A DNA stretch of 64,000 nt from Acidimicrobiia bacterium (GTDB taxonomy: Bacteria; Actinomycetota; Acidimicrobiia; Acidimicrobiales; Poriferisodalaceae): NCBI GenBank assembly GCA_022821985.1, contig JAJECP010000018.1, positions 1 to 64,000 of the forward strand. Direction: 5' to 3'. The notes under the pieces were generated by a model, which made no database searches, was not told the DNA's origin, and saw only the letters and a list, made by a program, of their open reading frames with translations. Numbering within the stretch: position 1 is the first letter of the stretch; each line of letters opens with the position of its first letter. A program made the translations under genes and the position numbers. Positions 9,993 through 45,711 of this stretch are shown one piece after another.

Positions 9993-11168
9993 ATGGATTT
10001 CTCGATCGACGACACCCAGCAGATGGTGGTCGACACCGTGCGCACCTTCACCATGCGCGAACTCGTGCCGCATGAGGACGAGGTGGAGCGCTCCGGTCAG
10101 GTTCCGCCCGACCTGGTGGAGCAGATACGCAACAGGGCCGTCGATGCCGGCCTCTACGCCGCCAACATGCCCGTCGAGCTCGGCGGCGGGGGGCTCGACG
10201 ACTTGACGCTGACCATGGCCGAGCGGGCTTTCGGCTGGACGTCCTACGCCCTGCAGTACATCGTGGCCCGCCCCTCCAACATCTTGCGGGCCTGCACCGG
10301 TGATCAGATCTCGGAATACCTCGTGCCCACCGTGCGAGGCGAACGGGTGGAGTGCTTGGCCATGAGCGAGCCCGACGCCGGCTCTGACCTGCGCGGCATG
10401 TCCTGCCGGGCCGAGCGCGACGGAGACGAATTCCTAGTGAACGGCACCAAGCACTTCATCAGCCACGCCGACCTGGCCGACTATGTGATCCTGTTCGCGA
10501 CCACGGGCATCGATGCCCCAGACGCGGAGACCCCAGGCCGCAGTCCGCGCAAGCTGATCTCGGCTCTGCTGGTCGACTTCGACACCCCCGGCGTCGAACG
10601 GGTGCCCGGCTACAACTGCGTGTCAAACCGGGGCTACCACAACCTCATCCTGAACTTTGACAACGCCCGGGTGCCGGCGAGCAAACTGCTCGGCGAGGAA
10701 CATCGAGGCTTCGACGTTGCCAACGAGTGGCTCGGAAGCACCCGCCTGCAGGTGGCCGCTGTGTGCCTGGGGCGCGCCGACCGGGCACTGTCGGTGGCGC
10801 TCGACTGGGCCGCCACGCGTGAGCAGTTCGGTCAACGGATCGGGCGATTCCAAGGCGTGTCGTTCAAGCTGGCCGACATGCGCCTCCGCCTCGCCCAAGC
10901 CGAGATGATGACCTACCGGGCCGCGTGGCTCTCCGAGCGGGCCGAGATGACCGACGCCGACGCCGCCATGGCCAAGCTGTCGGCCACCGAGATGCTGCAG
11001 TTCGTGTCGGATGAGGCCATACAGATCCTCGGCGGCATGGGGCTGATGGACGAGCTTCCGCTGGAGCGAATCTGGCGCGACGCTCGGGTCGATCGCATCT
11101 GGGACGGCACCAGCGAGATCCAGCGCCACATCGTGTCTCGCGACATGCTGCGGCCCATCGGCTGCTGA
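9993..11168 (+). CDS. Acyl-CoA dehydrogenase
   Basis: A 391-residue FAD enzyme of the acyl-CoA dehydrogenase family, full length. Conserved signatures are AMSEPDAGSDLRGM (about residue 120), the FAD/CoA region LDWAATREQFGQRIGRFQ, QILGGMGLMDELPLERIWRDARVD (about residue 350), and the C-terminal GTSEIQRHIV. It lies 66 bases after the carnitine dehydrogenase-thioesterase gene and 6 bases before the acyl-CoA synthetase gene. In this context it could form an alpha,beta-unsaturated acyl-CoA, for example crotonobetainyl-CoA from gamma-butyrobetainyl-CoA. The substrate assignment is inference from the neighbours only. Confidence 0.9.
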   Translation: MDFSIDDTQQMVVDTVRTFTMRELVPHEDEVERSGQVPPDLVEQIRNRAVDAGLYAANMPVELGGGGLDDLTLTMAERAFGWTSYALQYIVARPSNILRACTGDQISEYLVPTVRGERVECLAMSEPDAGSDLRGMSCRAERDGDEFLVNGTKHFISHADLADYVILFATTGIDAPDAETPGRSPRKLISALLVDFDTPGVERVPGYNCVSNRGYHNLILNFDNARVPASKLLGEEHRGFDVANEWLGSTRLQVAAVCLGRADRALSVALDWAATREQFGQRIGRFQGVSFKLADMRLRLAQAEMMTYRAAWLSERAEMTDADAAMAKLSATEMLQFVSDEAIQILGGMGLMDELPLERIWRDARVDRIWDGTSEIQRHIVSRDMLRPIGC

Positions 11169-11174
11169 ACCGCC

Positions 11175-13241
11175 ATGACTGGTCGGTTGGATCGGCTGTT
11201 GCGGCCACGGTCGCTGGCATTCGTCGGAGGCGCCGCCGCCGAATGGTCGATTGACGCCTGCCGGGCATTCGGCTTCGCAGGCGAGATGTGGGGGGTCAAC
11301 CCTCGCCGCACCCTGAGCGACCTGCCCACGGTCGCCTCGGTCGCCGAGCTCCCCGAAGGCATCGACGCCGCTTTCGTCGGCGTCGACCACGACGCCACGA
11401 TCGACACCGTGCGCCAGCTCTCCGAGGCCGGCGTGGGCGTCGCCGTCTGTCACGCCTCGGGGTTTGCCGAGGTCGGCGCGGCCGGCAAGGTCCGCCAAGT
11501 CGAGCTGGTCGAAGCAGCGGGCGCGATGGCCGTGCTGGGCCCCAACTGCTTTGGACTGCTCTCAGCGCCCACCGGTGCCGCCCTGTGGCCGGGCGTCCAC
11601 GGCTTGGTTCGCCACCCCCGAGGAGTGGCGCTGCTGAGCCAGAGCGGGAACATCGCCGTGAATCTGACCATGAGTCGTCGCGGCCTCGACGTGGCCTGGG
11701 TCATCAGCCTGGGAAACCAAGCCGACGTGGGGATCTCAGAAGCGTTCGAGGCAGTGGTCGTCGACGAGGCCACAACCGGCGTGGGCCTGTGCATAGAAGG
11801 GCTGAACGACGTCGAGCGCTTTGTCGAGGCCGCGGCAGTGGCTCGCCGACGACGCCTTCCGGTGGTGGCCCTGAAGGTCGGCGCCTCGCCGTCGTCGAGT
11901 GCGATCGCGGTCACCCACACCGCCTCGTTGGTGGGCGACAACGCTGCCTACGAAGCTTTGTTTCGGAAGGTGGGCATCCACCGTGTCCATGCCGTCGACG
12001 AGTTGGCCGACACTCTGGCCACCCTGTCCGCCGTCGGCCCCCTGCGGGGCAACCGGATGGTGTCATTGAGCTGCTCGGGCGGCGAGGCAGCGCTGGTGGC
12101 CGACCGCAGCCACGGGCGCAACCTGAGCTTTCCGCAGTTCGCACCCGACCACGCCGCCCGCGTGGCATCTGCGCTGGATGGCCGTGTGGCGATCACCAAC
12201 CCGCTCGACTATCACACGTACATCTGGGGCGATCCGGACAGGCTGAGTCGCTGTTTCGAATCTGTCCTGGGCGCCGACGCGACGGGCGGTGGATCTGGCG
12301 AGGCGCCGTTCGACGCCGCCATGCTGGTGCTGGACTTCCCCGCCGAGGGGCTGGATCGCTCGAGCTGGTGGCCGACGATGCAGGCGTTCGCCACGGCCTG
12401 CGCCAACGGCGGCACTCCCGGCGTCGTGGCGGCGTCGCTGGCGGAGAACCTGCCCGACGAGGTGCGCTCCCAAGCCGCCGGATGGGGGCTGGCTGCCTGC
12501 GGCGACATCGACAACGCGCTGTCTGCGTTGGAGGCGGCCGCCGCATGGGGGCGCCATCTCGACCGCACAGAACCCGGGGCGGGCTTGCTGGTGGTGAAGG
12601 CTCGTGAGGCTCCCCTCGGCACATCGGTTCTGCCTGAGCACGAGGCCAAGCCGCGTCTGGCGGCGGCGGGCATCGAGGTGCCGATGGGTCGGCTGGTCGA
12701 GCCCCAGCAGGCTGTGGCTGCCGCGGATGAGATCGGCTACCCAGTCGTTGTCAAGACCGTCGGTGCAGCACACAAGAGCGATGCCGGTGGCGTCGTGGTC
12801 GGGCTCGCCGATGCCGCCTCGGTTGCCGCAGCTGCTGAGCGGGTTGCCGTCGGAGGCAGAGCGGTGATGGTGGAGTCGTGCATCACTGACGTGGTGACCG
12901 AGCTGTTGGTCAGCGTGCGCTCATCACCGCCGGTGGGAATGATGCTGACGGTGGGCGCCGGCGGCACGCTGACCGAGGTGCTTGACGACACAGCCTCCCT
13001 GCTGCTGCCTGCGGCTGGCGACACCCTTGAAACGCTTCGCAGTCTGCGGCTGTGGCCTGTCCTCGCCGGCTACCGGGGTCGTCCGGCCGGGGCCGTCGAT
13101 GCCGTGGTCAACACGGTCAGACTGCTGGAAACGCTGGTGCGCGACGATCACCGCATCATCGAAATCGAAATCAACCCGCTGCTCGTCACCCCGCACACCG
13201 CGGTGGCAGCCGATGCCCTGATGGTGGTCGCAAATGATTGA
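11175..13241 (+). CDS. ADP-forming acyl-CoA synthetase (alpha-beta fusion)
   Basis: A 688-residue single-chain ADP-forming acyl-CoA synthetase (acetyl-CoA synthetase/succinate-CoA ligase type). The N-terminal Rossmann CoA-binding domain (about 1-130) starts LLRPRSLAFVGG and includes GPNCFGLLSAPTG. A ligase-CoA domain follows (ALLSQSGNIAVNL, VISLGNQADVGISE). The C-terminal ATP-grasp domain (about 485-688) has GYPVVVKTVGAAHKSDAGGV and the late strand IIEIEINPLLV. It starts 6 bases after the acyl-CoA dehydrogenase stop, in one operon. It would activate a carboxylic acid to its CoA thioester with ATP. It converges with the molybdenum hydroxylase gene, leaving 101 bases between the ends. Confidence 0.88.
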   Translation: MTGRLDRLLRPRSLAFVGGAAAEWSIDACRAFGFAGEMWGVNPRRTLSDLPTVASVAELPEGIDAAFVGVDHDATIDTVRQLSEAGVGVAVCHASGFAEVGAAGKVRQVELVEAAGAMAVLGPNCFGLLSAPTGAALWPGVHGLVRHPRGVALLSQSGNIAVNLTMSRRGLDVAWVISLGNQADVGISEAFEAVVVDEATTGVGLCIEGLNDVERFVEAAAVARRRRLPVVALKVGASPSSSAIAVTHTASLVGDNAAYEALFRKVGIHRVHAVDELADTLATLSAVGPLRGNRMVSLSCSGGEAALVADRSHGRNLSFPQFAPDHAARVASALDGRVAITNPLDYHTYIWGDPDRLSRCFESVLGADATGGGSGEAPFDAAMLVLDFPAEGLDRSSWWPTMQAFATACANGGTPGVVAASLAENLPDEVRSQAAGWGLAACGDIDNALSALEAAAAWGRHLDRTEPGAGLLVVKAREAPLGTSVLPEHEAKPRLAAAGIEVPMGRLVEPQQAVAAADEIGYPVVVKTVGAAHKSDAGGVVVGLADAASVAAAAERVAVGGRAVMVESCITDVVTELLVSVRSSPPVGMMLTVGAGGTLTEVLDDTASLLLPAAGDTLETLRSLRLWPVLAGYRGRPAGAVDAVVNTVRLLETLVRDDHRIIEIEINPLLVTPHTAVAADALMVVAND

Positions 13242-34669: not shown

Positions 34670-36294
34670 GGGCCACCTCCCCCGCCGGATATGCCGTTGC
34701 CCGCAGCGAGGTCACCGACTGCCTTCACGCGGATCCGTATGGCGTTCGACGGCAGGTATGTGAGGGGGATCTCATCGATGTCGGTGATCTCGACGGTGGC
34801 CGCGTCGGCGCCCGCGTCGACCGCGCGCTGGGACGTGACCGAACGGGCCTCGGCCATTGCCTCGTCGCGGGTCATCGACGCCATCGAGTACACCCGGTCG
34901 GTCTCGGCGCCGACCTGGGCGATGGCTGCGCCGATCGCGCTGGCAACCGAGAAATAGTCGGGTCGTATCGTTTCCGACGCTCCCGCCAAGCCGTCACGCA
35001 CCAGCACTCCCCCGCCGCCCACCACCACGACCGGTACCGGGTCGGCCGACGTCTTCATCTGTTCGACTGCGGTGGCCAGCATGTCCTGCATGCATTCGAC
35101 CGCATCGCCCACCAGCCCAGCGTCGACGTCGCTGACCGTCGCGCGGTCGCCGATGTCGGCCATGCCGGCTGCAGCGGCGATGTCCGTAGCGGTCAGCTCG
35201 TCGCCGCCGAACACCAGCGCCCGGTCGGTGAGCTCGTAGCCGACGCTGTCGGGCCCCACTGTCACGTCGGCGCCATCTCCGTCGGCGCCATTGCCGGAGC
35301 GCACCAGACTCCCGCCGCCGAGTCCCAGCGAGAGCACGTCGGGCATCCGGAAGTTCGTGCGCACTCCCGCGACCGAGACCGCAGTCGAGGCCTCTCGGGG
35401 GAAGCCGTGCACCAGCACGCCCACATCAGACGTCGTGCCCCCCACGTCGATGACCACTCCGTCCCGGATGCCGCTCAGGAATGCCGCTCCCCGCATCGAG
35501 TTGGTGGGGCCCGAGGCGAATGTGGCCACCGGGTAGCGGCGAGCAAAGTCGGCGCTCATCAGGGTGCCGTCGTTCTGGCTGACGTGCAGCGGGCAGTCGA
35601 GGCCAAGCTCGACCAGCGCCCCGATCAGCCCGGACACGGTGCGCTCGGCGAGCGGTCGCAGGCACGCATTCACGACCGCAGCGTTCTCACGCTCGAGCAG
35701 CCCCAGTCGGCCGATCTCGCTGGACAGGCTGATGTCGAGTTCCGGTGCCTCGTCAGCCAGGACATCACGGGTTTCGGCTTCGAAGCTGTCGTCGACGGGC
35801 GAGAAGACCGAGGCCACCGCCACCGAGTTCACGCCCTTCGAGACGATGTCCTGCGCTGCAGCCCGCAGCTCGTCGTGATCGATGGGGCTGATCAGCCGCC
35901 CGTCGAATTCGTGGCCGCCGTGGCAGAGATAGACGTGGTCGCCGAGCACGGCCCGCAGCCGCTCGGGCCAGTCGATGAACGGCGGCAGTCCCCGCGTGGC
36001 GGGGAGCCCGAGCCGCACGACGGCAGTGGGCACGAGGCGGCGTCCCTCCACCAGGGCGTTGGTGAAGTGCGTCGTGCCGATCATGACCGCACCGATCGCT
36101 TCGGGCGACGCGCCGCAGTCGTCGAGCACGGCCCGGACAGCGGTCACGATGCCGTCGGTCACCTCAGGTGTCGTGACAGCCTTGGACCACCCCACCACCT
36201 CGCTGCCGGACATGGCGACCGCGTCGGTGTTGGTGCCGCCCACGTCCACACCGATCCGCAACCTTCCAGGCGCCGCCGGCTGCGGTGAACTCAC
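34666..36294 (-). CDS. Hydantoinase/oxoprolinase-family protein (HyuA-like, short form)
   Basis: A 542-residue actin-fold ATP-dependent amidohydrolase of the HyuA/oxoprolinase family. The phosphate loops are present: GVDVGGTNTDAVAM at the N-terminus and VIDVGGTTSDVGVLV near residue 285. GTTHFTNALVEGRRLVPTAV is a family hallmark. It is shorter than classical HyuA (about 680-700 residues), and no HyuB partner is in the window. This short form is common beside DUF917 genes. Members use ATP to open lactam or imide rings such as oxoproline and hydantoin. It overlaps both neighbours by 4 bases and so belongs to the six-gene operon. Its target may be the ring product of the molybdenum hydroxylase. 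Confidence 0.87.
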   Translation of the reverse strand: MSSPQPAAPGRLRIGVDVGGTNTDAVAMSGSEVVGWSKAVTTPEVTDGIVTAVRAVLDDCGASPEAIGAVMIGTTHFTNALVEGRRLVPTAVVRLGLPATRGLPPFIDWPERLRAVLGDHVYLCHGGHEFDGRLISPIDHDELRAAAQDIVSKGVNSVAVASVFSPVDDSFEAETRDVLADEAPELDISLSSEIGRLGLLERENAAVVNACLRPLAERTVSGLIGALVELGLDCPLHVSQNDGTLMSADFARRYPVATFASGPTNSMRGAAFLSGIRDGVVIDVGGTTSDVGVLVHGFPREASTAVSVAGVRTNFRMPDVLSLGLGGGSLVRSGNGADGDGADVTVGPDSVGYELTDRALVFGGDELTATDIAAAAGMADIGDRATVSDVDAGLVGDAVECMQDMLATAVEQMKTSADPVPVVVVGGGGVLVRDGLAGASETIRPDYFSVASAIGAAIAQVGAETDRVYSMASMTRDEAMAEARSVTSQRAVDAGADAATVEITDIDEIPLTYLPSNAIRIRVKAVGDLAAGNGISGGGGGP

Positions 36295-38567
36295 GATTCA
36301 GCCTCCAGGGCCTCCAGCACCGCTTCGGGAGTGATCGGCAACGTGTCGAACGGCACGCCGATGGCATCGGAGACGGCATTGGCCACCGCCGCGGCCACTG
36401 GGACGATCGGGGGCTCGGCAGCGCCCTTCGCTCCGTACGGCCCGGCAGGGTCAACGTGTTCCATCACGATCATCTCCACCTTCGGCACATCTTCCGCCAG
36501 CGGCAAGCCGTGTGCCTTGAACGTGCGCTGGACATAGCGACCGTGATCGAGATCGACACGCTCGCTCAACGCGAAGCCCAAACCCTGGGCGACTCCGCCC
36601 TGGATCTGCCCAGCGATGGCGTCGGGGTGAATGGCCCGGCCCACCTCCTGGCACACGACGTATCGGTCGACGGTGACCCGGCCGGTGACCACGTCGACGC
36701 TCACCTCGGCCTGGTGCAGGTGGTAGGTGGGCGTCGGCCATCCCTTGATCAGCATGCCGGTGGCGCACGCCGGGTCGTGCGGAGGCGTCGGCGTGACATA
36801 CGAAGCGCCCGCAGTGATTGGCCCGTCAGACCAGGTGGCCGCCTGCGCGACCGCACCGAGCGTCAGGCTGGCAGCGGGCACCCCCGCAACCGCCACGACA
36901 CCGTCGTCGATCGTCAAGTCTTCGGGGGCCGCTTCCAGCATCTGGCTCGCCCGGTCCAGCACTTGGCTGCGAACCTCGGCTGAAGCATCAGCGATGGCCC
37001 GGCCGACAACGTGGGTGGTGCGGCTGCCTTGCGACCCGGCGTCGTAGCCGGTGGCGTCCGTGTCGGGCATGGTGATCGTCACAGCGTCAGCAGCAAGACC
37101 GAGCGTCTCGGCCGCGATCTGCCGCAAACCAGTGGCCACGGCGCCCGAGCCGTTCTCGGTCGCCGAAGTGATCACCGTGGCGGTGCCGTCCTCGTTGAGC
37201 TTCACCGTGGCGTGGCCGGGCATCGGATTGGTCAGCCACACCGCCGCCGCCTGCCCGACGCCTCGCAGCTCGCCTGTGCCCGCGCCCTGCCAGGGCGCTA
37301 GCTCATCGACTCGGTCGAAGGCTTCTCGCAGGATCGAGATCTCTTCGAGCGGCTGGCCGTTGCGCATCAGATCGCCGTCACGGGCTAGCGATGCCAACCG
37401 GAACTCCCGGCGATCCCGATCCAAGGCGTCGGCAACGGCGTCTATGTGCCGCTCGTTGGCGAACACCAGCCACGGCCCATTCACCCCCCGGTAGGCACCG
37501 GTCGGAGCGGTGTTCGTGTAGACGTTGCGGGTGCGGATGCGCGCAGTGCCCACCCTGTAGATCGAGCCGAAGACGAACATCGGGATGGCCGATAGCGCCG
37601 GGCCGTTGTTGGCGTAGGCACCGCTGTCAGAGACGATCTCGACGTCGGTGGCCAGGATCGTGCCGTCGCCGCTCACCGCAGAGCGGATTGAGACCAGCGC
37701 ATTGGCCCGGCAAGGTGCCACGAGGCGCTCTTCGAGTGCAGCGTGCTGCATGCGCACCGGACGCCGGTAGCGGCGAGCCAGCAGCGCGGCAAAGGCCTCA
37801 AGGCTGACATCAAGCTTGGCGCCGAAGCCTCCGCCGATGTGATGGCCGACCACGCGCACTGCCGAAGGCGCCACGCCCAGCATCTGGGCGACACGGTCTC
37901 TCAGCCGGAACGGGTACTGGTGGGACACCTCGATGACGTAGCGGCCCGACTCGTAGGTCGCGAGCGCCATCTTGGGCTCCAGATGCGCCTGGTACTGCCG
38001 GGGCGTGCGGTACGTACCCTCCACGACGACGTCGGCGACCGCGAACGCCTCGTCCAGGTCTCCCGGGTCGTGGACCACTTCGGCTACCACGTTGCCGTCA
38101 CGCCCAATGTCAGCGCCGCCAGTCACGGCAAAGCGGTTCCAATCGGGGTGGACCAGCCGCACACCCGGCGCCAGTGCCTGTTCGGGCGTCGATACGGGCT
38201 CGGTCGGTTCGATGTCGATGTCAACCGCCTGAGCGCCCGCGTCGGCCGCGGCACGGTTGTCCGCCACCACGATCGCCACCGGTTCGCCTTCGTAAGCCAC
38301 ATAGTCGGCCGCCAGGAAGGGAATGTCGTTCACGATGACACCGGTGCGCCCATCGGGAACATCGGCAGCTGTCAGCACATCCAGCACGCCGTCGACCTTG
38401 AGTGCCGGTCCCGAGTCGATCGAGCGGATGCGGCCCGCCGCAACCGGAGACCTCGAGATCGACGCCCACAGCATCCCCGGCCTTGCAAGGTCGGCACCGA
38501 AGACCGCCTCGCCACGAAGCTTCGCGTCGGCATCGCTCCGGGCGGGATTGGACCCGAGCAGACTCAC
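36291..38567 (-). CDS. Molybdopterin subunit of a xanthine oxidase-family hydroxylase
   Basis: The 758-residue catalytic subunit. The core is visible as GHHIGGGFGAKLDVSLEAFA (about residue 240), TAPTGAYRGVNGPW (about 345) and the late YGAKGAAEPPIVPVAAA segment with the catalytic Glu. The AYRGVN loop differs from the AYxCSFR loop of true CO dehydrogenases, so this is a general carbon hydroxylase. The GTG at 38567 was chosen because it overlaps the 2Fe-2S gene by 4 bases (GTGA); the longer open frame upstream lies within that gene. Together with the FAD and 2Fe-2S subunits it makes a complete three-subunit enzyme that hydroxylates a heterocycle or aldehyde using water. Confidence 0.9.
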   Translation of the reverse strand: MSLLGSNPARSDADAKLRGEAVFGADLARPGMLWASISRSPVAAGRIRSIDSGPALKVDGVLDVLTAADVPDGRTGVIVNDIPFLAADYVAYEGEPVAIVVADNRAAADAGAQAVDIDIEPTEPVSTPEQALAPGVRLVHPDWNRFAVTGGADIGRDGNVVAEVVHDPGDLDEAFAVADVVVEGTYRTPRQYQAHLEPKMALATYESGRYVIEVSHQYPFRLRDRVAQMLGVAPSAVRVVGHHIGGGFGAKLDVSLEAFAALLARRYRRPVRMQHAALEERLVAPCRANALVSIRSAVSGDGTILATDVEIVSDSGAYANNGPALSAIPMFVFGSIYRVGTARIRTRNVYTNTAPTGAYRGVNGPWLVFANERHIDAVADALDRDRREFRLASLARDGDLMRNGQPLEEISILREAFDRVDELAPWQGAGTGELRGVGQAAAVWLTNPMPGHATVKLNEDGTATVITSATENGSGAVATGLRQIAAETLGLAADAVTITMPDTDATGYDAGSQGSRTTHVVGRAIADASAEVRSQVLDRASQMLEAAPEDLTIDDGVVAVAGVPAASLTLGAVAQAATWSDGPITAGASYVTPTPPHDPACATGMLIKGWPTPTYHLHQAEVSVDVVTGRVTVDRYVVCQEVGRAIHPDAIAGQIQGGVAQGLGFALSERVDLDHGRYVQRTFKAHGLPLAEDVPKVEMIVMEHVDPAGPYGAKGAAEPPIVPVAAAVANAVSDAIGVPFDTLPITPEAVLEALEAES

Positions 38568-39067
38568 GATGTTGCCGCCCGGATCATCAACTGGGCGGCG
38601 TCGAGCGCCGCTTCCACTATCTGCTGGTACCCGGTGCAGCGGCAGATGGTGCCTGCGAGTGCTCGGCGGACATCGGCCTCGGAAGGGTCCGGAGTGTCCT
38701 CCAGCAAGGCTGTCAGCACCATCAGCACGCCAGGCGTGCAATAGCCGCACTGGACGGCGGCATGGCTGACGAAGGCTTGCTGCAGTGCAGTGAGCTCCCC
38801 CGTCCCGGCGAGCCCTTCGACCGTGAGAACCGTCCGGCCGTTCGTCGAACCGGCGGCCAATATGCACGAAGCCACCGGAGCGCCGTCCATCAGCACGGTG
38901 CAGGCACCGCATTCGCCCTCACAGCATGCTTCCTTCGGTCCGAGGAGCGAGAGGCGCTCCCGCAGCATGCTGAGCAGAGTCTCCCCCGCACCTACGTCGA
39001 GTTGGTGGCGCCGCTCATTCACGATGAGCCGGATGGAGACGGATTGCTCGCCCGCGGCGCCAGGCAT
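38564..39067 (-). CDS. 2Fe-2S subunit of the molybdenum hydroxylase
   Basis: A 167-residue electron-transfer subunit with two [2Fe-2S] clusters. The plant-type cluster uses C48, C53, C56 and C68, and the C-terminal cluster uses C107, C110, C142 and C144 (CGYCTPG and CRCTGY). The ATG at 39067 shares one base with the stop of the FAD-subunit gene (TGATG), which decides the start. Another ATG 11 codons upstream would lie inside that gene. Electrons pass from the molybdenum site through these clusters to the FAD subunit. Confidence 0.93.
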   Translation of the reverse strand: MPGAAGEQSVSIRLIVNERRHQLDVGAGETLLSMLRERLSLLGPKEACCEGECGACTVLMDGAPVASCILAAGSTNGRTVLTVEGLAGTGELTALQQAFVSHAAVQCGYCTPGVLMVLTALLEDTPDPSEADVRRALAGTICRCTGYQQIVEAALDAAQLMIRAATS

Positions 39068-39933
39068 CAGCTTCCCACCCCGGAGATCCCTGCGACACAT
39101 CGCTCCGCCAACCGGCTCAGCAGTCTGGGGAGCACCCGCCGCCTGTACTCAGCCTCTCTTGCCCGTTCGGGCGCTGCGGCACTCGCGAGCTCTGCGCCGG
39201 CGTCGGTGCAATCGAGACGACCGTCGACAAGCTGGGTGCCCACGACTGCAGCTTCTGCGCTCGGCACTCTGTGCGGCGGCCGGGTTCCGCCGCACACAGC
39301 GATTCGAGCATTGTTGACGACGCCGGTCGGCGTCACCGACAGCCGGAGCGCCAAGCCCACCACCGCAAGGTCCATGGCACTGCGGCGGCCCACCTTCACG
39401 TATCCCTCGGCGCTGCGCTCTCCGAGCGGCTCCGCCTCGATGGCCCGCAGCAGTTCGGTCGGCCGCAGGGCCGTCGCGCCGGGCCCCTCGAGGAACTCCT
39501 CCAGCCCGATGCGCCGACGGCCCGATTTCGACACCAGCATCAGCTGCGCATCGGCGACGAGCAGCGCGGGCAACGTGTCGGCTGTTGCCGCCGCTGAGCA
39601 GATGTTGCCGCCCAGCGTGGCCACCGTCTGGGTCTGCCACGCTCCGACCGCCGTAGCCGCCTGCGCCAGCGCCGGGTGCCGCATCGCGACGAGCGACGCT
39701 GTGGCAAGCCTGCGCAAGGTGACCAACGTGCCGATGCTGGTGACGCCGCCGACCTCCGAGACGCCCTGCAATCCGTCGATCCCGCTGATGTCGATCAGCG
39801 CAGCCGGAGGCTGCTCACCTCGCAGGTACTGCGGCATCACGTCGGTTCCGCCCGCCAGGATGCGGCCCTCGGTGCCCCAGCGGCTCAGCTCGTCGACCGC
39901 CTCGGCGACACTGCGAACCCTGCAGAACCTCAC
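39067..39933 (-). CDS. FAD-binding subunit of the molybdenum hydroxylase
   Basis: A 288-residue CoxM/XdhB-like subunit. Both FAD contacts are present: ILAGGTDVMPQYLRG (about 25-40) and VATLGGNICSAAATAD (about 105-120). The C-terminal domain (EGYVKVGRRSAMDLAVVG) matches the family's FR/xR D region. The GTG start at 39933 overlaps the stop of the reductive-dehalogenase-like gene by 4 bases (GTGA). It accepts electrons from the 2Fe-2S subunit and passes them to NAD or another acceptor. The coupling to the upstream Fe-S protein raises the possibility that electrons are shared between the two, which is inference. Confidence 0.92.
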   Translation of the reverse strand: MRFCRVRSVAEAVDELSRWGTEGRILAGGTDVMPQYLRGEQPPAALIDISGIDGLQGVSEVGGVTSIGTLVTLRRLATASLVAMRHPALAQAATAVGAWQTQTVATLGGNICSAAATADTLPALLVADAQLMLVSKSGRRRIGLEEFLEGPGATALRPTELLRAIEAEPLGERSAEGYVKVGRRSAMDLAVVGLALRLSVTPTGVVNNARIAVCGGTRPPHRVPSAEAAVVGTQLVDGRLDCTDAGAELASAAAPERAREAEYRRRVLPRLLSRLAERCVAGISGVGS

Positions 39934-42011
39934 TGGCCGACGCGCTCCCGTGCTGCCCCGGGTGACTCGGCCTCCTGCGACGCTGCAATGCCGGCTTCAC
40001 GATTCAGCGGGAACGGGGCCATCCCGTCCGGGCCGGGCGGGGCCATCTCCGGCGGGAACATCGCGAAGCCCGATTCGTCTCGCGGCTTGCGCTCGAGGTT
40101 AAGGCCCCTCGTGTTCGCACCCTTCGGCGGCTCGACCGGCGTGTCCTCGAGCACCTCGATGTCCACCCACCACTTCTTCGCCGGGTTGATCTCGCCGCGG
40201 CCGAGCTTGTCGTCGAGCCGGGCGATCCACGAGCGGGCGAACGGCAACTTCATCGCCGCCCACTGGAACGGGCGCTCGGCCAGCACTCCTTCGACGTTGT
40301 ACGGGTACGTCTTCATGCAGCGCCCGCAGGCCGAGCCACGCATGTTGGTGATCCGGTAACGGGCGCAACGGTCGACGTCGGGCTTCCACATCTCGTACCC
40401 GTTGAACATCACCTTGTCGCCGAAGCGGATAGCCCCCACCGGGCACTCGCGGGCGCACTTGGTGCACTTGGTGCAGAAGTCCTGCAGCCCGAAGTCGATC
40501 GGTCGGTCCGGGGTGAGCGGCATGTCGGTGGTGATGGCGCCCGACTTGAAGCGCGGTCCCACGAACGGGTTCAGCACCAGCTCACCAATGCGTGACAGCT
40601 CCCCGATGCCGGCCGACAGCAGCAGCGGTATGTGGTTGATCTCGTCGTCGGCGGCGGTGTGCGCCTGCGCGTCGTAGCCGAGCCGGCGGATCTGGGCGGC
40701 GATCGCATTGGCGATGATCGACGCCCGCAGGTAGGCCCGCATCGACTGTGCACCGCTGATCCAATCGTCGCCCGAAGCGCCCTCCATGGTCTCGAAGCCC
40801 TGATCGAGCACGAACACGATCGCGTTGCGGTGCAGCTTCTCGATGGGCGAGCCGTCAAAACGGTGGGAGTACCAGGCATATTCGGGCGCCTCGCACACGC
40901 CGGTCATGTCCGCGCCGATGAAATGACCCAGCGCTTTGACCGCGTCGGCGTTCGCTGCCGGGTTGTCCGCACCCGGGCCGACCTCGGGGGCAGCCTCGCC
41001 CCGCTGCAGCGGAACCAACCGCCGCAACATCTCTTGCGAGGCGATGCCATGCGGCGCCTTGCGGATGAAGCGAGCCACCTCCTTGCGCGGGCGAGGGCCC
41101 AGGTCGCCGGCGCCGGCCCGCACGAAGAAGTTGTGCCGCGCCGCAGGTCGCGTGACCTCTTCGGGTATGACCAGCGTGGTCGGCTCGTCGACCCGCTTCA
41201 CCTTCTCCATCGGGTAGCGGCCGAGGTGCCACGGCCGGTGCCGCCCGTAGAGACGGCTCCACCCCGGCCGGGTGCCACCCCAGCCCAGCCAGTGCCGGAG
41301 GGAGATGCGCAGGTTCTGCACGACATTGCGCGGCGCGAGCGGGCCGTCGGGAGTGAGTTCCAGATTCGTCGTGACCACCGCAATGGCGAACCCCCGCTTC
41401 AGGAAGGGATGTCCGAGCCCGCGGCGATCTGTCTCAAGCACCCCAGCTTCGACGCCGATCCGGAAGCGATCCACATCTGAGGCTGCTGCAGTGTGTGCGG
41501 TGGCCCCATATCCGAGTGTGCCCAGATACCGAGTGAGCACAGTGGCGATTTCCGTGGCACGCAGGTCGGCGTTGTCCTGTTCAGAACCGGCGATCCAGTC
41601 ATATCCCGGCTCGCCTGGCCGGATGGGTCGCCCCAGCCCCACGACGATCGCGATGGCACTGCGGTGCCCTTCGATCGGTTCAGCAGTCCAGCTCTGCCGC
41701 GACGGCTCGCAGATGCCAGCGAGGTCGGCATCGAGGAAGAAGCAATACCCGCGCATGTTGTCCACCGCAGCTTGTGCACTCGGCATCGGTGCCGGCGCCG
41801 CCAGCACATCCGCTGTCCGGCATGCTGTGAAGACGTCAACGATGTCGCCGAAAACGCCAGCCACGCCCCACTCTTCCGGTGAGGCTGGTGCGGGCGGCGG
41901 GTCGGGCACTTCCTTCCTCACGTCGAACGCCCCGGGCGAGAGCCGGGGCAGCAGCTCGGTAGGCAGCGGACCGGCCGCCGCGGCTCGCTTGCGGTGCGAG
42001 AACAGGCGCAT
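39930..42011 (-). CDS. Duplicated reductive-dehalogenase-like 4Fe-4S protein
   Basis: A 693-residue protein related to the catabolic, non-exported reductive dehalogenases and epoxyqueuosine reductase, which are cobalamin Fe-S enzymes. Two copies of the cobalamin-type domain can be aligned by eye. Residues about 82-226 contain DADLAGICEP, LGYGATAHTAAASD and LELTPDGPL. Residues about 355-504 contain GADMTGVCEAP, LGYDAQAHTAADDE and MPLTPDRPI. Only the second copy leads into the ferredoxin part: C513, C516, C519 and C523, then C549, C562 and C565. The final expected Cys before Pro is Y569 (MKTYPYN). No Tat signal is seen, so it is cytosolic. It is the first gene of six coupled genes. Confidence 0.8.
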   Translation of the reverse strand: MRLFSHRKRAAAAGPLPTELLPRLSPGAFDVRKEVPDPPPAPASPEEWGVAGVFGDIVDVFTACRTADVLAAPAPMPSAQAAVDNMRGYCFFLDADLAGICEPSRQSWTAEPIEGHRSAIAIVVGLGRPIRPGEPGYDWIAGSEQDNADLRATEIATVLTRYLGTLGYGATAHTAAASDVDRFRIGVEAGVLETDRRGLGHPFLKRGFAIAVVTTNLELTPDGPLAPRNVVQNLRISLRHWLGWGGTRPGWSRLYGRHRPWHLGRYPMEKVKRVDEPTTLVIPEEVTRPAARHNFFVRAGAGDLGPRPRKEVARFIRKAPHGIASQEMLRRLVPLQRGEAAPEVGPGADNPAANADAVKALGHFIGADMTGVCEAPEYAWYSHRFDGSPIEKLHRNAIVFVLDQGFETMEGASGDDWISGAQSMRAYLRASIIANAIAAQIRRLGYDAQAHTAADDEINHIPLLLSAGIGELSRIGELVLNPFVGPRFKSGAITTDMPLTPDRPIDFGLQDFCTKCTKCARECPVGAIRFGDKVMFNGYEMWKPDVDRCARYRITNMRGSACGRCMKTYPYNVEGVLAERPFQWAAMKLPFARSWIARLDDKLGRGEINPAKKWWVDIEVLEDTPVEPPKGANTRGLNLERKPRDESGFAMFPPEMAPPGPDGMAPFPLNREAGIAASQEAESPGAARERVGQ

Positions 42012-42127: not shown

Positions 42128-42811
42128 TCAGTCGGCGACGACTGGGGGCGTGGTCTCGCTCATCCGGTCCCACACCACCTGATCGGGCAGGCTCATCACC
42201 ATGTCGTAGTGGTCTTCGGGCATCAGCCGCGGCATGCCGGTATCCCCCGACGGCTGAGGCACGGGCTCGACCGGGCGGCTGTATTCCGCCGGGTACTTCA
42301 ACTGCTCCAGTTCGGCCGCAGAGATCCCGCACAGGTCCTGGACTTCAGGGTCCACCCACTGCTCGACGGGGATGGCCGACCCGCATGCCACCTCGAGCGC
42401 CAGTCCCTCTGGACCCGCGAAATAGATCGACTGGATGAAGCCGTGGTCGATCGGGCCGAACACCTGCACGCCGCGATCGCGGATGCGGTCACGCAGTGCC
42501 ATCAGGTCCTCGAAGGTGTCCACGTTGAACGCCACGTGCTGCATCGTGCCGGCAGTCACGGGCTCGCCCGGCCCACCTGCGTGAGTGACACCGAGCTCGA
42601 TGTCCTTGGCGTTGTCCGGGTGCTGGACGAATGCCACGTAGCTGTCGGGCGCCAGCTCCACGAAGCCGTGGTAGGTGCCGTCCACGCCGTGCATCCAGTA
42701 GAGCGCCTTGAGCGGCAGTCCCAGCACATCGCACCAGAACTCCAGCTGGCCCTTCATGTCGCGGGTGGACAGGGCGAGATGGTTCACACCATTGGGATGC
42801 AATGCGGCCAT
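42128..42811 (-). CDS. VOC-superfamily protein (extradiol dioxygenase/glyoxalase type)
   Basis: A 227-residue vicinal-oxygen-chelate protein. Likely metal ligands are H11 (VNHLALSTRD), H91 (MQHVAFNVD) and E140 or so (GLALEVACG), the spacing of extradiol dioxygenases and glyoxalases. The two beta-alpha-beta-beta-beta modules cover about residues 8-75 and 85-145. The tail from about 145 is Pro-rich and specific to this protein. It lies 116 bases upstream of the reductive-dehalogenase-like gene on the same strand. If it cleaves rings it would fit an aromatic pathway, but isomerase or resistance-type functions are possible. Confidence 0.8.
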   Translation of the reverse strand: MAALHPNGVNHLALSTRDMKGQLEFWCDVLGLPLKALYWMHGVDGTYHGFVELAPDSYVAFVQHPDNAKDIELGVTHAGGPGEPVTAGTMQHVAFNVDTFEDLMALRDRIRDRGVQVFGPIDHGFIQSIYFAGPEGLALEVACGSAIPVEQWVDPEVQDLCGISAAELEQLKYPAEYSRPVEPVPQPSGDTGMPRLMPEDHYDMVMSLPDQVVWDRMSETTPPVVAD

Positions 42812-42901
42812 TCGAATGGCTCCCTCTTCGCTTGCGACTATATGCCTCGGCCAGCCCTCACTTCGAACCTGAGTGCGTTCGCAAATCTGGCCGTGCAGCC
42901 G

Positions 42902-43384
42902 TCACGACCCGGGTGAGGAAGCCTGCTCTGCGCCGGCAGCGAGCGCCTCTTTGTGCCGTTCGTAACTCCCCACCATCTCCAAGAACCGCTCTGGGTTGTA
43001 GATGTCCTCTTCGTAGCTCCACAGGCCGTCGCCTGCGTACTTGAGGAGCGAGAAGTTGTACTCCCGATGGTCAGAACCATCGCCGGGGTCGGCCATGCGG
43101 TTCCAGATCTGGCACACCACCCAGCCACGTTCCTCATCGATGATGTACCACTCGATGGGGAACTCGATCATCTCCGATCCCGGCCACTCGCTCATCTGGG
43201 ACTGGATCCACTCGTAGATGGCCTCGCGTCCGACCATCGTGCCGAAGAAGTGCTCGACGTAGGTTGCGTCCTCGGTGAAGCGATCGGCCCAGTCGCGCCA
43301 GTCGCCGGTCTGGCCCGCCTTCTTGCTGGCCGCCTGATAGGTGGCAAGCGCTTCGGTGATCTCGGCTCGGCTCCATTGGCTCAT
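42902..43384 (-). CDS. NTF2/SnoaL-like protein
   Basis: A 160-residue cone-shaped alpha+beta-barrel protein of the NTF2-like superfamily. An N-terminal helix (TEALATYQAASKKAGQTGDW) is followed by the family-typical WADRFTEDATYVEHFFGTMVGREAIYEWI. The later strands are EFPIEWYIIDEERGWVVCQIW and the acidic LWSYEEDIYNPERF. Members include isomerases, hydrolases and small dioxygenase subunits, so only the fold is assigned. It sits between the VOC gene and an LLM gene in the leftward run, with 90- and 56-base gaps. Confidence 0.8.
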   Translation of the reverse strand: MSQWSRAEITEALATYQAASKKAGQTGDWRDWADRFTEDATYVEHFFGTMVGREAIYEWIQSQMSEWPGSEMIEFPIEWYIIDEERGWVVCQIWNRMADPGDGSDHREYNFSLLKYAGDGLWSYEEDIYNPERFLEMVGSYERHKEALAAGAEQASSPGS

Positions 43385-43440
43385 CGTTCGTCATCCTCGG
43401 TTGCTGGTCGGCGCAGAGCGAAATGTAAGTGAGAACGCAG

Positions 43441-44451
43441 TCATGACGTCGCCAGCGGGGCAATCACCTGCTCGGCGAAGAGGTCGAACGAGCGGTCCAC
43501 CTCGTATGCCGAGAGGTCGCCCCAGGCGAAGACGCCGACGAAATAGTCCGTGCCGGCTTCTTCGGCGAACTGCTCGCAGTGTTCACGCACGGTCTCGGGC
43601 GAGCCCACGACCACGGCTTGGAAGTGCTTGGCCTTGTCGTAGTCGCCGCCGAGAGTCGGATCATTCGGCGGGGTCATCTCGTAGCGCCTGAACAACCGGG
43701 TCAGGTGCTCGGTGAACGCAGCCCAGGTACGGCGGCCGATCTCGTCAGCCTCAGCATCGGTGGGCGCCACGATCAGCCGGCGCAGCCCGCCGATCATCGG
43801 CGAATGATGCCTGCCGATGCCGCCGGGGTCGAGAAGCTCGTGGTAACGAGCCGTGCTGGCTGCCACGGCAGCGAGCGGTCCTGCGGCCATGGTGCGCACG
43901 CCCATCTCGGCGGCAGTCTCGAGCTGGCCGGGTCGCCACAGCGGCGGGTAGGGCCGCTGGTAGGGCTCGAATTCGATCGGCACATCACGGAATTCGTAGA
44001 ACTCGCCCTCGAAGCTGAAGTTGCCCGTGGTCTGCATGGCGGCCAGGATCAGCTCCAGCGACTCGTCTGTCTGCGCGACGGCATCGTCAGGGTCCAGACC
44101 CCACAGCAGGTGCTCGGGCACGCTGATGCCCTTGCCGAAGCCGAACTCCAGCCGGCCCTCGGAGAGCTGGTCGAGCATGCACAGCTCCTCGGCCAGCCGG
44201 ATCGGGTGGTAGAAGGGCAGCAGGTGCACCAGCGAGCAGATGCGGATGCTGCTGGTGCGCTCGATGGCGGCGGCCAGGAACACGTTGATGCTGGGCGCAG
44301 CATCCAGCGGGATCAGGTGGTGCTCAGACTTGTGCCATCCCCACACACCGGCTTGCTCGGCCCGTGCCAGCAGGTCCAGGCGGTGCCGGTAGAGCTCATG
44401 CCACGGCACATCGCCCGGCTGTTCGAGCTGGTCGAAGATGCCGAATCGCAT
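43441..44451 (-). CDS. LLM-class flavin-dependent monooxygenase-like protein
   Basis: A 336-residue luciferase-like protein. The family layout is clear: MRFGIFDQLEQPG at the start, then KSEHHLIPLDAAPSINVFLA, RICSLVHLLPFYHPIRLAEE and LDQLSEGRLEFGFGKGISVPE. It resembles alkanal-monooxygenase-type members more than F420 reductases. The ATG at 44451 is favoured because the first barrel strand begins there; the frame continues to 44484 without conserved sequence. The ribosome-binding site is weak. The FAD oxidoreductase gene lies 69 bases upstream on the same strand. Confidence 0.85.
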   Translation of the reverse strand: MRFGIFDQLEQPGDVPWHELYRHRLDLLARAEQAGVWGWHKSEHHLIPLDAAPSINVFLAAAIERTSSIRICSLVHLLPFYHPIRLAEELCMLDQLSEGRLEFGFGKGISVPEHLLWGLDPDDAVAQTDESLELILAAMQTTGNFSFEGEFYEFRDVPIEFEPYQRPYPPLWRPGQLETAAEMGVRTMAAGPLAAVAASTARYHELLDPGGIGRHHSPMIGGLRRLIVAPTDAEADEIGRRTWAAFTEHLTRLFRRYEMTPPNDPTLGGDYDKAKHFQAVVVGSPETVREHCEQFAEEAGTDYFVGVFAWGDLSAYEVDRSFDLFAEQVIAPLATS

Positions 44452-44520
44452 GGGCAGCGAGAGTAGTGGTGGGACCGGATGCACGGCCGAGGCGCCAGCC
44501 AGCCCTGCTCGAACGACAAC

Positions 44521-45711
44521 TCAGATGATGGCGCTCTCGACGAATGGCTCGCCGTCGACGATGCGCTGGTAACCCAGCGGCGTGAGGTCCAGCGTGCGGT
44601 ACTCGCCGTAGGCAATCCACTCCGACACGGCCCGACCGATGGCTGGCGATTGCTGCATGCCGTGTCCCGAGAACCCGTTGGCAAAGATGAAGTTCTCTGT
44701 CTCGTGGTGCGGTCCGACCACCACGTTGTGGTCGAGCGTGTTGTAGGCGTAATGACCGGCCCACTGGCTGGTGACCTTGAGGCGCTCGAAGGCAGGCACG
44801 CGATGGGCCAGCACCGGCCACACCTTGCCCTCGAAGATGTCGTGGTCCATGGCGAAGTCGTCGTAGTCGACGGCGGGGTCCGCGTCGGGCGTGCAGCCGC
44901 ACATGTAGGCATCGCCGTCGCTGCGCATGTGGACACCGGTCGGATCGATGGTCAGCGGCAGGGCGCGATCGAGCGGCTCTGCTGCGTCGAAGATGAACGT
45001 GTAGCGCTTGCGCGGCTCCACCGGCAAGGTCGCGCCTGCCATACGGGCCACTTCGACTGCGCGCGGCCCAGCGGCGTTCACCAAGGTTCCGCAGCCGACT
45101 TCGCGCCCCGATGCCAGCAGTGCCGAGGTCACACGTCCAGCTGAGATGACGAGATCGACAACTTCGTCGGTGATGTAGGTGACGCCGTTCTGGCGCGCCT
45201 TGCGACGCCACCAGTCGAACATCGTGCCCGAGTCGAAGTAGCCCTCGTCCGTCAGGTTGTGGCTGCCGCAGATGATGTCGTCGACGTTGTAGAAGGGGTA
45301 GTCGGCCTTGATCTCGGCCGGGCTCATGATGCGCGTGCCAGAGCCCAGCCCGGCCTGGATGGCATGGTTGCGGCGCAGCGCGTCGGCGAAGCGCTCATCG
45401 GCGGCGAGGTACATGTAGCCGAAGTGGTGGGTGAAGATGTCGGGGATTTCAGGATCGCCGCCGAGACGTTCCCGGAAGTTGCGCACGAAGTCGGCGCTGA
45501 AGCGCGAGATCTGCACGTTGAGCGGGTTTGAGAACTGTTGACGCATGCAGCTGTTGGTGTGGGTGGTGGATGCATTCGCGTAGGTCGGGTCGCGCTCCAC
45601 CACCAGCACCGATCCGTCGAAGCCGTCGCTGGCCGACAGCGCCCAGGCGATCGACGACCCCATCACCGCCCCGCCCACGATCACCACGTCATAACTGTCT
45701 TGCATCGCCAC
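44521..45711 (-). CDS. FAD-dependent amine/amino-acid oxidoreductase (DAO family)
   Basis: A 396-residue flavoprotein of the D-amino-acid oxidase/sarcosine oxidase-beta/glycine oxidase family. The N-terminal dinucleotide motif is VVIVGGAVMGSSIAWAL, and NAAGPRAVEVARMAG is the second FAD contact near residue 215. The C-terminal FANGFSGHGMQQSPAIGRAVSEWI is the family's closing FAD motif. It is expected to oxidise a secondary or primary amine, giving an imine that hydrolyses to a ketone or aldehyde. It lies 13 bases after the MDR dehydrogenase gene, in the same leftward transcript. Confidence 0.88.
   Translation of the reverse strand: MAMQDSYDVVIVGGAVMGSSIAWALSASDGFDGSVLVVERDPTYANASTTHTNSCMRQQFSNPLNVQISRFSADFVRNFRERLGGDPEIPDIFTHHFGYMYLAADERFADALRRNHAIQAGLGSGTRIMSPAEIKADYPFYNVDDIICGSHNLTDEGYFDSGTMFDWWRRKARQNGVTYITDEVVDLVISAGRVTSALLASGREVGCGTLVNAAGPRAVEVARMAGATLPVEPRKRYTFIFDAAEPLDRALPLTIDPTGVHMRSDGDAYMCGCTPDADPAVDYDDFAMDHDIFEGKVWPVLAHRVPAFERLKVTSQWAGHYAYNTLDHNVVVGPHHETENFIFANGFSGHGMQQSPAIGRAVSEWIAYGEYRTLDLTPLGYQRIVDGEPFVESAII

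Follow-up and report, generated by a model that had tools for sequence, protein, structure and literature searches.

Closest described systems

A clade of reductive dehalogenases (RdhA) without a reductase domain has been described, with NpRdhA from Nitratireductor pacificus pht-3B (PDB 4RAS, 6ZXU and 6ZY1) among its members (PMC10463259). According to the same report, NpRdhA is monomeric and dehalogenates ortho-halophenols, and a duplicated cobalamin core that is vestigial in one copy is a hallmark of catabolic RdhAs of this kind; the N-terminal copy (copy 1) of NpRdhA is reported to be unable to bind cobalamin (PMC10463259). In the C-terminal copy (copy 2), Tyr426 is believed to donate the proton, and K488 is a critical residue (PMC7565698). 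The respiratory tetrachloroethene reductive dehalogenase PceA (4UQU, 8Q4H) has one core per chain, and the epoxyqueuosine reductase QueG (5D08, 5D6S) shares with these enzymes the class-III cobalamin fold.

A catabolic-type reductive dehalogenase in an Acidimicrobiia genome

The window, by which we mean the whole 64,000-nucleotide stretch of DNA analyzed, harbors a gene of the NpRdhA type in an Acidimicrobiia host ( Table 1 ). It is a single ORF of 693 aa with an ATG start, read on the minus strand from 42011 to 39930. By sequence, the best solved relatives of its product are the NpRdhA structures 4RAS and 6ZXU, which cover residues 1–691 (E 2e-182) at 44% identity and are co-linear over the full length. 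The full-length AlphaFold2 model (pLDDT 92.2, pTM 0.94) superimposes on NpRdhA with Z 52.9 and an rmsd of 1.9 Å over 685 residues. The next structural matches are PceA-type enzymes (Z 25–28), which span only about residues 251–618; in these, the cobalamin core and the two-cluster Fe-S part match copy 2, and copy 1 is an extra unit of the window protein. The window protein and NpRdhA share the two-copy architecture, the active-site Ser/Tyr/Lys/Arg set, the absence of a fused reductase and the N-terminal start MRL[FY]S. They differ at Gly420, where NpRdhA has Ala419, and at Tyr569, where NpRdhA has the last Fe-S cysteine.

Table 1. Features at and around the rdhA gene of the window.
Feature	Position	Strand	Basis
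Catabolic-type (NpRdhA-like, no fused reductase) reductive dehalogenase, 693 aa	39930..42011	-	ORF; 4RAS full-length match; model superposition; TIGR02486
Repeat unit 1, residues about 1–233: N-terminal extension and vestigial cobalamin-core copy (core about 69–227)	41313..42011	-	hhalign against unit 2; PceA/QueG fold
Repeat unit 2, residues about 251–512: extension and putatively functional cobalamin core (S423, Y427, K489)	40476..41261	-	Residues invariant in 82 sequences; roles from PMC7565698
Two [4Fe-4S] motifs, residues about 509–575: C513, C516, C519, C523 and C549, C562, C565, Y569	40287..40487	-	Eight-position alignment
Codon 569, TAC (Tyr), TGC (Cys) in relatives; middle base 40306	40305..40307	-	Alignment of relatives
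CoxM/CoxS/CoxL-like molybdenum hydroxylase genes	36291..39933	-	Pfam FAD_binding_5, Fer2_2, MoCoBD_1, MoCoBD_2
Upstream genes: glyoxalase/dioxygenase-fold protein, SnoaL-like protein, luciferase-like monooxygenase, DAO-type oxidoreductase	42128..45711	-	Pfam

Membership in the reductive dehalogenase family is also reflected in the NCBIfam model TIGR02486, against which the whole protein scores 172.6 bits, above the cut-off of 160.35; the best stretch alone, searched at the DNA level, scores 148.7 bits and falls under it. Three other assignments were rejected. A respiratory RdhA of the PceA type has a single cobalamin core, and two are present here. QueG is ruled out by the score against its equivalog model TIGR00276 (24.9 bits, cut-off 200), and the genome carries a QueG-like gene of its own (L003). 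The self-sufficient BhbA/JtRdhA type is ruled out by the C-terminus: like the catabolic enzymes with a vestigial duplication (PMC10463259), the window protein has two copies, but it ends at residue 693, and a Pfam search of the ORF found no reductase domain, including the phthalate dioxygenase reductase domain of that type.

It is very probable that this protein is an NpRdhA-type catabolic RdhA without a fused reductase, in which one ancient duplication gave rise to a structural copy 1 and a catalytic copy 2. Its presence adds one more Acidimicrobiia lineage to those with catabolic, oxygen-tolerant reductive dehalogenases, which are useful in pollutant breakdown. The substrate is probably an ortho-halogenated phenolic compound.

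The internal duplication

The original prediction, made from the sequence of the window, was that a cobalamin-type domain is duplicated within this protein, that the two halves carry the same motifs in the same order, and that only the second half leads into the ferredoxin part. All three motif pairs are present in order, the ferredoxin part does follow the second half only, and a comparison of the two half-profiles (hhalign, built from 50 relatives) aligned 164 columns at 30% identity with a probability of 100 and an E-value of 4.7e-44. In a DNA-level search of the genome itself, TIGR02486 matches both halves in the same frame (40200–40832, E 3.5e-43; 41340–41594, E 3.7e-4). The repeat unit is longer than originally predicted and includes the N-terminal extensions, with residues 1–233 aligning to residues 251–512 at E 2.4e-53 (hhalign). 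An RPxHLGxxPxE segment is repeated in both units, and the short segments by themselves align at 3e-10.

The structural models likewise predict a class-III cobalamin fold for both halves, whose pockets were compared by sequence columns. A chance sharing of short motifs by an unrelated N-terminal domain can be given practically no credence: we found nothing in its favor, and the profile alignment, the common fold and the matches of one RDH model to both halves all stand against it. The duplication is thus real. The novelty implied in the original prediction did not hold, as the duplication itself has been described from the NpRdhA structure and the architecture is a published hallmark (PMC10463259).

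Copy 1 as a vestigial core

Modeled alone, copy 1 again gives a confident structure (pLDDT 92.2), whose matches include the NpRdhA N-terminal half (Z 23.9), PceA (Z about 14–15, up to 14.8) and QueG (Z about 13–14, up to 13.8); the copy-1 profile also picks up PceA by sequence. The residues have decayed. In copy 2, 46 of 168 alignment columns are at least 98% conserved, and copy 1 has nine such columns. At only 12 of the 46 near-invariant columns do most copy-1 sequences retain the copy-2 residue, mostly Gly, Thr, Arg, Lys, Pro or Asp. The catalytic Tyr, Ser and Lys are gone: D149, Q145 and A209 stand in for Y427, S423 and K489. Copy 1 also lacks two residues of the copy-2 hairpin. Mean pairwise identity falls from 0.77 in the Fe-S part to 0.65 in copy 2 and 0.42 in copy 1. 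The decay of these conserved columns gives no support to a functional core in copy 1.

Copy 1 is nevertheless under selection, since six of its columns are invariant and its changes at close range are mostly synonymous. This fits a structural role, although copy 1 may have another ligand. Of the three roles originally proposed for the first copy, that of a degenerate scaffold is backed by the sequence decay, the structure and the published account of NpRdhA (PMC10463259). A second was that copy 1 binds another cofactor; a second corrinoid, or a different cofactor, would make it an additional redox site. The retained B12-protein fold, including a weaker resemblance of the copy-1 model to MMACHC and CblD, speaks for such a site. 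However, copy 1 has lost, in part by deletion, loop and hairpin residues that do not vary in copy 2, a second Fe-S domain is absent, and the reported failure of NpRdhA copy 1 to bind cobalamin contradicts it for that enzyme, so that we consider a second redox site highly improbable.

Under the preferred reading, the cobalamin-core unit would have been duplicated once, long ago, and its N-terminal copy would now be free of cofactor. Copy 1 would then act as an internal structural partner and stand in for the second subunit found in dimeric respiratory enzymes; both the absence of cobalamin from copy 1 and the mimicry of a dimer interface are proposed here by analogy with the NpRdhA literature.

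The active site and Fe-S part of copy 2

Residues S423, Y427, K489 and R553 are the equivalents of NpRdhA S422, Y426, K488 and R552 and are invariant in 82 sequences. Copy 2 would bind cobalamin and carry out the chemistry with electrons from the two C-terminal Fe-S clusters, with Tyr427 as the likely proton donor and Lys489 placed in the active site.

All eight Fe-S positions are cysteine in 81 of the 82 sequences, and the window protein has seven of the eight. The exception is residue 569, the last cysteine of the second motif, which is Tyr in this assembly alone and Cys in NpRdhA and every relative examined, including 9/9 orthologues found in the same genus, one of them at 98% identity. The difference is of a single base in one metagenome assembly, and this allele may be altered or misread at the eighth Fe-S cysteine. 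Tyr569 likely results from an assembly or read error or from a private mutation. We consider it unlikely to be a true natural variant, in which one cluster would have three Cys ligands and be altered ([3Fe-4S] or Tyr-ligated), or the gene would be decaying.

Distribution and origin of the duplication

One scan yielded 350 confirmed relatives (stretches), mostly from Acidimicrobiia and Proteobacteria, and 80 of these were kept. In the genus, 10 of 11 genomes have a match, and in the family 23 of 39 do; some of these matches are partial or single-core. The relatives are chiefly of use as a sequence set in which copy 1 can be examined as a case of cofactor loss in a retained domain. Among the literature titles and abstracts listed, nothing to the point connected sponge Acidimicrobiia with enzymes of this type. 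In one genome of the genus there is an additional two-copy RdhA, which shares 54% identity with the window protein (L105, G405:C20:17750-19828).

In the tree, all copy-1 sequences form one clade with 100/100 support, which indicates a single old duplication before this set diverged. In this tree copy 1 lies closer to copy 2 than to the single-core rows, but the support is weak (53/92) and the branches are long, so that copy 1 may derive from copy 2 by duplication or from a different core by fusion. L115 (G186:C80:16400-20300), a relative with one core, shares about 40% identity with copy 2; its likely start corresponds to the segment that lies between the two cores here, and it may be close to the pre-duplication form. 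The genome of the window also carries a second, single-core reductive-dehalogenase-like gene of about 352 aa (L002, G000:C23:196422-196940), which is found in other genomes of the genus as well.

Neighboring genes and the electron donor

The third role originally proposed for copy 1 was to receive electrons from the coupled hydroxylase encoded beside it. The rdhA gene and the first, CoxM-like, of the three Cox genes overlap by 4 bases in the window, and most close relatives have Cox genes in the vicinity of rdhA, directly downstream in L005, L008, L011 and L013. A search for a PF00970-type reductase elsewhere in the genome found none, but the assembly is 90% complete, which makes this absence weak evidence. 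Against copy 1 as a docking site for a molybdenum hydroxylase that feeds the dehalogenase, other genes intervene between rdhA and the Cox genes in L007, L010 and L012, and the Cox genes were not found beside rdhA in L006 and are missing from distant relatives except for a weaker CoxMSL-like match in L017, yet copy 1 is present throughout the relatives, including those beyond the closest group. In addition, copy 1 contains neither an Fe-S domain nor any redox center motif. Docking therefore seems very unlikely, the gene context gives no support for a dedicated transfer of electrons to copy 1, and CoxMSL was rejected as a generally conserved electron partner. In a difference from NpRdhA, no ferredoxin oxidoreductase was found among the neighboring genes examined, and the electron donor would be encoded apart from rdhA.

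Upstream, near relatives keep the order DAO, luciferase-like monooxygenase, (SnoaL), glyoxalase-fold and rdhA, with SnoaL undetected in two. The rdhA neighborhood suggests a role in the breakdown of an aromatic compound. In L010, an intradiol ring-cleavage dioxygenase gene (L010:11228-12070; PF00775/PF04444) is among those that separate rdhA from the Cox genes, itself a hint of aromatic catabolism. A similar protein of ~345 aa is encoded after rdhA in L007 (about 10150-11190), L010 (L010:10145-11191) and L012 (about 10090-11127); no Pfam family matches the L010 copy, and in the window the gene does not adjoin rdhA. Finally, the genome encodes a CobS homologue, in keeping with corrinoid synthesis or salvage.
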